A DNA stretch of 20,668 bases, from IMG/VR virus record IMGVR_UViG_3300009506_001163, positions 1-20,668 of that record, one strand, 5' to 3'. Position 1 is the first letter of the stretch. Every line of letters starts with the position of its first letter. The position numbers and the translations under genes are program-made. Below are positions 9,882 through 12,466 of this stretch, piece after piece. The notes beneath the pieces were generated by a model. The model had not been told where the DNA came from, made no database searches, and saw nothing but the letters and a program-made list of their open reading frames with translations. Origin of the DNA: a virus.

Positions 9882-10237
9882 TACGGTTTCTGATTCTGTT
9901 TTTCTTTTTTCTCTGCGGAATGGCCCTCGCCGTGCTCGTCTTCTCCGGGTGCGAGGTGGTCCCCGTTGACCCTGACACCGACGCGGACAGCGACGCCGAC
10001 GCCGGCGACGGGGGGATGGAGGGGTACGACTGCGCTGCGGCATGCGCCAACCTGGCGCGGCTCGGGTGCCCTGGGGCGGAAGGGTCACCGGGCCTGGACG
10101 AGGAGTACGGGACGCCCGATGACGTGCCCTGTGAGGCTGTCTGCGTCGATGTGGAGGCCAATGGGGTGTCGATGCATACCGCATGCACTGCGGCGGCGGG
10201 GAGCTGTGAGGCGGCGGACGGGTGCTTTAGTCGATGA
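9878..10237 (+). CDS. Predicted lipoprotein, cysteine-rich
   Basis: 119 residues. The start overlaps the protease stop (ATGA). A phenylalanine-rich signal segment (MIRFLILFFFFLCGMALAV) ends in a lipobox-like VFSGC with Cys25 as the probable lipid anchor. A short acidic linker (DPDTDADSDADAGDGG) follows, then a domain with about eight cysteines in the pattern CAAACxxLxxxGCP...CEAVC...CxxxxxxC. Export by Sec and anchoring by signal peptidase II are predicted. Its place after the protease could fit an Rz1-like spanin role, but it lacks the proline-rich small-protein look of Rz1. A surface or superinfection-exclusion lipoprotein is an alternative. Its last 11 bp overlap the converging gene's 3' end. 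Confidence 0.72.
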   Translation: MIRFLILFFFFLCGMALAVLVFSGCEVVPVDPDTDADSDADAGDGGMEGYDCAAACANLARLGCPGAEGSPGLDEEYGTPDDVPCEAVCVDVEANGVSMHTACTAAAGSCEAADGCFSR

Positions 10238-10718
10238 ACTCACAGCAATCCCATTGCCTAGTACACTGTCCAGGGATGATCCACCCACCGTGTTCGATGC
10301 AGGCATAATCACATTTTTCAGATGGACAGATCGGTATAATACAACACCTGTTTTCGCCAGAGCAGTCCCCGGTCTCGACAAGTTCCCCGCCGGCGTTTTC
10401 GCACCCTTCCCAGTTGAACTGGTCAGAGCAGAGTGAATCACCATCGAGCGACAGCGGGCAACTCTCCAGCGGCCCCGTGTCCGTGTCACCATCCCCATCA
10501 GCGTCGGTGTCGGAGTCCGAGTCTGAATCCGCGTCACTATCCGAGTCTGCATCCCCGTCCCCGTCCCCATCGCCGTCTCCGTCAGAATCGCCGTCCGTGT
10601 CCACGGAGCCGGTATCGTTGTCCGCGTCCGTATCGGTGTCAACCTCCACATCCTCGTCGACAACTGGGTTCTCGCAGGCGACCGCGAGCGCCATTAAAGG
10701 GATTATGATTGTCTTCAT
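10227..10718 (-). CDS. Predicted lipoprotein with long Asp-rich linker (moron-like)
   Basis: 163 residues, one of the few leftward genes here. The signal peptide MKTIIIPLMALAVAC has a lipobox LAVAC with Cys15 as the lipid site. Residues 21-82 are a near-pure Asp/Ser/Gly/Thr linker (DTDTDADNDTG, DSDADSDSDSDTDAD) that could bind calcium or act as a flexible spacer. The C-terminal 75 residues form a cysteine-rich domain (CPLSLDGDSLC, CCIIPICPSEKCDYAC, CCEFID). The ribosome site AAAGGAAAAG is seen on the minus strand. Opposite orientation, its own promoter-like site and AT-rich flanks suggest a moron expressed separately from the late operon, perhaps in the lysogen. The linker style resembles myxobacterial lipoproteins. 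Function unknown. Confidence 0.78.
   Translation of the reverse strand: MKTIIIPLMALAVACENPVVDEDVEVDTDTDADNDTGSVDTDGDSDGDGDGDGDGDADSDSDADSDSDSDTDADGDGDTDTGPLESCPLSLDGDSLCSDQFNWEGCENAGGELVETGDCSGENRCCIIPICPSEKCDYACIEHGGWIIPGQCTRQWDCCEFID
10476..10640 (-). repeat. Low-complexity Asp/Ser-coding repeat tract
   Basis: A run of imperfect hexamer-like units (GTCNGANTC on the plus strand) codes residues 27-81 of the leftward lipoprotein. It is probably length-variable by slippage, which could tune the distance between the lipid anchor and the folded domain. It is a coding repeat, not a CRISPR array or iteron set. Confidence 0.8.
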
Positions 10719-11633: not shown

Positions 11634-11657
11634 ACCTTTTCTTTTCCCCCTCCCCTG

Positions 11658-11682
11658 GCCCTCGGGGCTCGTCCCCGGGGGC
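11658..11682 (+). other. GC-rich hairpin just before the tmRNA
   Basis: GCCCTCGGGG-CTCGT-CCCCGGGGGC forms a 10-bp stem (one G-U pair) and is followed by TCCTTTCT. It could be a weak terminator for the upstream ORF, or a leader stem removed by RNase P when the tmRNA 5' end is made at 11691. Confidence 0.5.
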
Positions 11683-11690
11683 TCCTTTCT

Positions 11691-11972
11691 GGGGGCGAAC
11701 TGGTTTAGACATCCGAGAGAAAGATATCGTGCGTGCCCCGGGCGACGGCAGCCGGGTCAAAAAAGCCGCCATCATCGAACCGTCAAAGAAGACGAACTCC
11801 AGGAAGCCGCCTGAGCTTCCCGTGCTCCCGGAGAGTTCCCGTGTATCCGGGAGGGCGTCATTTAACGGGGCTCTTTTTTCTCCTTTATCCAACGGTCGTG
11901 AGACTACGCACGTGAACGAACGGTATCCAGATCGACAGATGGACCCGGGTTCGAGTCCCGGCGCCTCCACCA
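11691..11972 (+). ncRNA. ssrA: tmRNA (transfer-messenger RNA), phage-borne
   Basis: A complete tmRNA of 282 nt. The tRNA-like ends match the universal pattern. The acceptor GGGGGCG (11691-11697) pairs over all 7 bp, with one G-U, with CGCCTCC (11962-11968), followed by encoded ACCA. The D-loop analogue is AACTGGTTTAGAC (consensus TGGTTTCGAC). The T arm is CCGGG-TTCGAGT-CCCGG (11945-11961). Helix 2 pairs 11723-11729 with 11921-11927 and 11730-11735 with 11905-11910. PK1 is seen at 11737-11768. The tag frame ends at TGA 11812, inside the loop of helix 5 (GGAAGC 11802-11807 with GCTTCC 11815-11820), just as in E. coli. A later pseudoknot uses stem CTCCCGGA/TCCGGGAG (11825-11853) and loop CCCGT (11838-11842) with ACGGG (11865-11869). 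It rescues stalled ribosomes with SmpB. No smpB is in the window, so host SmpB is presumably used. Confidence 0.93.
11785..11814 (+). other. tmRNA tag reading frame
   Basis: Alignment with E. coli (GUC, resume codon, two codons, then GAA) puts the resume codon at AAA 11785, giving KEDELQEAA and stop TGA. Starting one codon earlier gives VKEDELQEAA. The C-terminal Ala-Ala needed for ClpXP-type degradation is kept, but the usual Leu-Ala-Ala or Val-Ala-Ala is Glu-Ala-Ala, and the resume amino acid would be Lys rather than Ala. The exact resume point is inference. Confidence 0.65.
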
Positions 11973-12269
11973 TAGCGTTGGCAGCTATGACCCGCGCCCT
12001 CGGAGATCGCTTCAATGGGGGCGCTCCTGTCTTACCGGTGGGATACACCGGACATTATGACACGCCCCTTCCGGTCTCAACCCCGGGAGGGGCACCGGCA
12101 CCGCATAACACCACAGCGGTACAGATGGTTTTGTCTTCGGCCTCCCCGGGGATGGTCTCCGGGGCGGTCTGCGGTGCCTTTCACCTTCCTTACCGGCGGG
12201 GATATACACCGGATCACTTACAAAGGCTCGACGGGTGCCGTGGTGAAAGAACCGAAAACCCGCCATCAT

Positions 12270-12330
12270 GCCACGATCCCGCAGGGGGACAGCGGTCAAA
12301 ATCCGAGTCGGGTTCGAGCCCCGGCGTGGC
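12270..12330 (+). other. tRNA-like element: T arm and acceptor without a normal body
   Basis: GCCACG (12270-12275) pairs with CGTGGC (12325-12330), and a canonical T arm TCGGG-TTCGAGC-CCCGG (12308-12324) sits directly before the 3' strand. Only about 61 nt separate the ends, there is no proper D arm, the anticodon arm is poor and no CCA is encoded. It is either a decayed tRNA or a tRNA mimic inside the structured tract. Confidence 0.45.
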
Positions 12331-12466
12331 TCTGAGAGCAGCTCAAAAACTGCCGTATGGGTGCGATGCCCTATGGGCGACCCTGCCGTGGGTGGAAAAC
12401 CGGTAAGACGTCCCATTCCAATATGCCACCGAAAGGCATCGGTGGGGAGGACACTCTTTGCCCGAG

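Follow-up and report, generated by a model that had tools for sequence, protein, structure and literature searches.

The DNA analysed here (the window) is a virus contig of 20,668 bases from IMG/VR, a 20.7 kb fragment from a tailed phage, and carries in mid-contig a complete one-piece tmRNA gene. The genes upstream encode baseplate J, other wedge proteins of the baseplate and a tail-fibre-like protein, and those downstream an AAA ATPase, an exonuclease of the RecE type, RecT and a fused helicase/methylase, in agreement with a preliminary description of the same DNA that had placed the tmRNA between the late and early modules. Directly 3' of the tail-fibre-like gene lies a papain-family cysteine protease gene (PF00112; 9060-9881, plus strand), and the minus strand encodes, at 10227-10718, a putative lipoprotein of 163 amino acids (MKTIIIPLMALAVAC...) with a long Asp/Ser/Gly repeat, adjoining an AT-rich stretch. 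Repeats of this kind are frequent in lipoproteins of Myxococcota and could be a pointer to a Myxococcota host. The features recognised in and around the tmRNA gene are:

11657-11683 (+): strong hairpin, -22.8 kcal/mol (fold; 4 of 200 shuffles as good)
11691-11972 (+): complete one-piece tmRNA gene, 282 nt (Rfam RF00023, full length)
11691-11697 (+): 5' strand of the acceptor stem, GGGGGCG, paired with CGCCTCC at 11962-11968 (sequence and covariance-model alignment)
11698-11710 (+): D-loop-like block AACTGGTTTAGAC (sequence)
11710-11736 (+): 5' strand of helix 2 (covariance-model alignment and sequence)
11737-11768 (+): pseudoknot PK1 (H-type search; agrees with the PK1 position of the covariance model)
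11782-11814 (+): tag reading frame VKEDELQEAA*, ten codons (translation; resume codon set by covariance-model alignment)
11802-11820 (+): helix 5 hairpin GGAAGC-CGCCTGA-GCTTCC with the stop codon in its loop (sequence and fold)
11825-11870 (+): pseudoknot PK2 (H-type search; equalled in 5 of 300 shuffles)
11871-11897 (+): U-rich linker of 27 nt at the usual site of PK3 and PK4 (large deletion relative to the covariance model)
11945-11961 (+): T arm, CCGGG-TTCGAGT-CCCGG (sequence and covariance-model alignment)
12270-12331 (+): tRNA-like element lacking an anticodon arm (motif search with post hoc criteria; equalled in 1 of 2000 shuffles)

The search of the window against all Rfam families with cmscan returned a single match, to the tmRNA family RF00023, at 11691-11972 on the plus strand (E 1.5e-32). 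The match covers the model from position 1 to 374 of 374, is not truncated and scores 86.3 bits against a curated gathering cut-off of 47 bits, so that the complete tmRNA proposed in the preliminary description is recovered end to end, with identical coordinates, by the covariance model. Bacillus phage G, whose tmRNA is recognised as such, scores lower (67.6 bits), and cluster C mycobacteriophage Nappy scores nearly the same (84.0 bits). ARAGORN, the other program suggested as a check, reported no tmRNA in the window. It likewise overlooks two Gordonia phage tmRNAs that Rfam recognises, in GMA2 (94.6 bits) and in Sixama (88.1 bits), and its silence is therefore no counter-evidence.

The ends of the gene form a tRNA-like domain that lacks an anticodon arm. 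In the seven-pair acceptor stem G3 (11693) stands opposite U (11966), as seen both in the sequence and in the covariance-model alignment; G3-U70 is the alanine identity pair. The T arm is followed by the 3' strand of the acceptor stem, an A and an encoded CCA (11970-11972). The D-loop block, usually TTTCGAC in tmRNAs, reads TGGTTTAGAC, with A in place of the usual C of GGTTTCGAC; this TTTAGAC variant is shared with two other one-piece phage tmRNAs (contigs L008 and L010) and with the ssrA of Bacteroidales hosts. The exact 5' pattern of the gene seldom occurs, in viral and genome collections alike: across 84,980 species genomes it was found in 8 contigs only, in 5 of which it overlaps an Rfam tmRNA. 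The 5'-pattern matches L031, L033 and L034 were rejected as tmRNAs, there being no Rfam tmRNA at the site.

Helix 2 is built from three pairings: CATC with GATG (11938-11941), GATATCGT with ACGGTATC (11920-11927) and CGTGC with GCACG (11908-11912). PK1 consists of the stems CCCGG (11737-11741)/CCGGG (11752-11756) and CGGC (11746-11749)/GCCG (11765-11768), a combination equalled in 13 of 300 shuffles, and PK2 of CTCCCGGA (11825-11832)/TCCGGGAG (11846-11853) and TCCCGT (11837-11842)/ACGGGG (11865-11870). The same H-type search of the tmRNA found no pseudoknot at the place expected for PK3 and PK4, leaving PK1 and PK2 only. Four pseudoknots are typical of tmRNAs, though not universal and hence not strictly defining. 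The anatomy read in the preliminary description thus stands for the tRNA-like ends, the TGGTTTAGAC block, the T arm, helix 2, helix 5 and the tag frame, while its pseudoknots hold for PK1 and PK2 and not for PK3 and PK4. Seven bases 5' of the gene ends the hairpin 11657-11683, which, judged from its predicted fold, may terminate the upstream gene or serve as a processing signal.

The tag frame opens with GTC at 11782, a resume codon for valine rather than alanine, preceded by A at position -4 (GAACC|GTC), and closes with GCC GCC TGA, the stop codon (11812-11814) lying inside the loop of helix 5. As a control set, 92 bacterial one-piece tmRNAs annotated by ARAGORN were used, most of them from three phyla. 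Their lengths range from 345 to 400 nt, all above the 282 nt of the window tmRNA. Their tags end in LAA (73), YAA (14), AAA (3), VAA (1) or KAA (1) and start with A (88), G (3) or D (1), so that neither the valine resume codon nor the EAA end of the window tag occurs among the 92. Among the bacterial matches listed, full-length RF00023 matches scoring above 90 bits go down to 331 nt by coordinates. Some cyanobacterial tmRNAs lack some of the pseudoknots, and bacterial tmRNAs as short as 250 nt have been described (PMC1168896).

The tRNA-like element at 12270-12331 lies 0.3 kb downstream of the tmRNA and combines an acceptor stem GCCACG/CGTGGC with a T arm TCGGG-TTCGAGC-CCCGG that is 94% identical to the T arm of the tmRNA over 18 bases. 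It belongs to no significant Rfam family; two matches over 12250-12347, one to Hammerhead II with a broken CUGAUGA core (17.9 bits, E 0.23) and one to the Deinococcus Y RNA (13.7 bits, E 5.6), were not significant and were discarded. Of the overlapping windows examined over 11.97-12.6 kb, 12000-12199 on the plus strand is the only clear case folding better than its shuffles (z -3.6). A hairpin, CCGGTGGGATACACCGG, occurs at 12035-12051, with a partial second copy near 12197.

The integrity of the contig was assessed through its closest long relative, G011, a phage genome of 47,281 bases, which has homologs of both flanks of the tmRNA: the tail module at 22.9-29.8 kb, and the AAA ATPase, RecE and helicase/methylase at 35-42 kb. 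Its RecT match is weak and lies near 43 kb, the homologs are partly in other orientations, and no tRNA or tmRNA is found in G011.

Relatives of the window were chosen by homology to its proteins, many of the contigs being fragments, and RF00023 was searched in six named phages and contig L002, in 50 contigs recruited by a baseplate protein, in 50 recruited by the helicase/methylase, in two more by baseplate and in six by two other proteins. No one-piece tmRNA above the RF00023 cut-off was found in any of these viral contigs or in the six named phages, and weak tRNA-like matches appeared in four of the relatives' contigs. Conservation among homologous phages, which the preliminary description had proposed to look for, is therefore not seen in the largely fragmentary relatives at hand. 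The sole near-identical relative, L002 (94% in the baseplate region), is 4 kb long and ends short of the tmRNA locus; a search among phages found no near DNA relatives of the window, RecT used as bait recovered no relatives in the viral contigs, and distant DNA matches to the tmRNA cover its 3' end only. L039, the sole viral contig with the exact 3' end pattern, was rejected as a relative, since by sequence its tmRNA, 191 bases from the contig end, is an integration-type host ssrA. The gene looks like a lineage-specific gain, in a group whose sampling near the window is thin.

Taken together, the locus probably encodes a functional, compact, one-piece tmRNA that provides ribosome rescue for the phage. 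Its anatomy is compatible with trans-translation assisted by host SmpB. Since no smpB occurs among the window genes scanned, the host protein would have to serve. In the proposed sequence of events, the transcript would be trimmed at both ends in the manner of a tRNA and charged with alanine by virtue of G3-U70, and the alanyl-tmRNA would be bound by host SmpB and EF-Tu and enter ribosomes halted on mRNAs that are broken or lack a stop codon. These would be switched to the GTC resume codon, add VKEDELQEAA and be released on reaching the helix 5 TGA. The phage would thereby gain extra ribosome-rescue capacity during infection and possibly an altered fate of the tagged peptides. Against this reading stand the valine resume codon and the EAA end, both atypical with respect to the 92 bacterial tmRNAs, as well as the fragmentary contig and the fact that none of the close relatives searched shares the gene. 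Loss of PK3 and PK4 need not abolish function, by analogy with cyanobacterial tmRNAs, the bacterial forms of 250 nt and the tmRNA of Streptomyces phage Wofford. In E. coli, interchanging pk2-pk4 costs little tagging activity and the hp5-pk2-pk3-pk4 segment of another species is tolerated, whereas disrupting rather than swapping pk2-pk4 affects both tagging and maturation (PMC4236655). Because replacement of the segment is tolerated, the loss is compatible with function, without being proof of it.

Three other explanations have to be weighed against a functional tmRNA. A host ssrA could have entered the phage contig through misassembly, as a passenger or at a prophage boundary, and the facts that ssrA is a common integration site and that IMG/VR contigs can include host ends, as L039 does, speak for it. 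This is nevertheless very improbable: the tmRNA is located in mid-contig with phage genes on both sides, it is shorter than any of the 92 bacterial tmRNAs and has an atypical tag, and its exact 5' pattern is nearly absent from the species genomes. Since both flanks have their homologs within a single phage genome, the 47 kb G011, a chimeric contig or misassembled host ssrA, the case that the preliminary description had named as fatal to its proposal, is disfavoured. That description had also argued for a complete gene rather than a 3' fragment left by integration, and the whole molecule is indeed present, which makes it a phage-encoded gene and not an att-site remnant.

A once functional tmRNA now decaying, having begun to lose its 3' pseudoknots, would account for the missing PK3 and PK4, the change from TTTCGAC to TTTAGAC, the GTC resume codon and the fact that no relative examined has kept the gene. 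We regard such decay as unlikely, because G3-U70, the CCA, the T loop, helix 2, PK1, PK2, the -4 A and the ten-codon frame are intact together, as are the acceptor and the stop in its loop; moreover, TTTAGAC recurs in the tmRNAs of L008 and L010 and in Bacteroidales ssrA, and the Wofford tmRNA is equally short. The RNA might alternatively act as a decoy, dampening the host's trans-translation by binding to SmpB or to stalled ribosomes; the molecule of mycobacteriophage DS6A, consisting of the tRNA-like domain only, offers a precedent when expressed in E. coli (PMC4131195, PMC11915505). The divergent tag end and the second anticodon-less tRNA-like element downstream would suit such a role, but a decoy would need neither the resume codon nor the frame and stop, all of them intact here, and we give this role as little credence as decay.

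The tag ends of phage tmRNAs were compared in 14 non-redundant lineages, whose tags were taken from ARAGORN, from the deposited record or from inspection by eye. This is a convenience sample of lineages that are not fully independent, and the bacteria it is set against are not matched to the phages' hosts. An end other than [LY]AA is found in 10 of the 14 lineages versus 5 of the 92 bacterial one-piece tmRNAs (Fisher p ~8e-8, the lineages being partly related). The divergent ends are EAA in the window, QAA in L010, AAA in L008 (by eye), QVA in phage G, VAA in Kumao and in the Wildcat-like EniyanLRS, VGA in Rey, VLV in Phabba, and ALV in a Gordonia BlueNGold-like phage (deposited tag) and in the cluster C phages Nappy and Tonenili; LAA is kept in prophiGD54-2, Wofford, RcSimone-Hastad and CcrBL9. 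In E. coli, changes to LAA (e.g. to DAS) weaken ClpX binding (PMC9382460), and the pattern would for this reason be expected to alter degradation. A tentative and rather doubtful reading is that phage tmRNAs as a class uncouple rescue from degradation, the ClpX-type [LY]AA end having been lost repeatedly, so that ribosomes would be recycled while the tagged peptides avoid degradation or pass to another protease. The LQEAA end of the window would be one instance of such a loss. If the pattern holds, it would offer a testable handle on what phages gain from a tmRNA, namely ribosome recycling and not protein destruction.

The rarity of phage tmRNAs assumed in the preliminary description is not borne out. 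Bacillus phage G and nine mycobacteriophages were listed in 2014 (PMC4131195), and a 2022 survey found tmRNAs in 402 of 18,146 phage genomes (PMC9004378). Annotated tmRNAs were met here in Mycobacterium, Gordonia and Streptomyces phages, and complete matches without tmRNA annotation in GMA2, Sixama, RcSimone-Hastad and CcrBL9. The window tmRNA is thus a further case of an already known kind; what is new is the phage group, in which none of the sampled relatives has one, and that so compact a tmRNA was overlooked by a standard gene finder. As this and the Gordonia misses suggest, counts of phage tmRNAs based on ARAGORN only are too low. In GMA2 (L213, KR063281), a YrlA-like match below threshold (43.1 bits) and a Pistol ribozyme (56.8 bits) come after the complete unannotated tmRNA, next to tRNA genes.

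Several of these systems resemble the window in part. The tmRNAs of Nappy and Tonenili are likewise complete, one-piece and have non-host tag ends, but they measure 400-434 nt, encode 25-residue tags ending in ALV and adjoin tRNA genes. That of Bacillus phage G shares the reduced length (312 nt), and the end ELQVA of its tag AKLNITNNELQVA resembles DELQEAA, yet its gene sits among clustered tRNA genes of a 497 kb phage and has a lower covariance-model score. Melnitz (PMC9004378), RcSimone-Hastad and CcrBL9 also encode a complete tmRNA, in their case in two pieces (circularly permuted). Permuted tmRNA genes that are alike and lie in a tRNA cluster were also observed in the viral contigs L004, L005, L007 and L009 (33-56 kb), with long ARAGORN tags in L005 and L007, and in a contig of Comamonas odontotermitis (L038), whose genome has in addition a one-piece tmRNA elsewhere (190 bits). 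Streptomyces phage Wofford (NC_048722) is, like the window, a tailed phage with a one-piece tmRNA, in its case annotated, of 280-282 nt and with a short tag; its RF00023 match (98.7 bits) likewise has a large deletion where the model places PK3/PK4, a likeness at the level of the family consensus and of form. Unlike that of the window, the Wofford tag, ANSNVASAYALAA, retains an alanine resume residue and the host-type LAA end.
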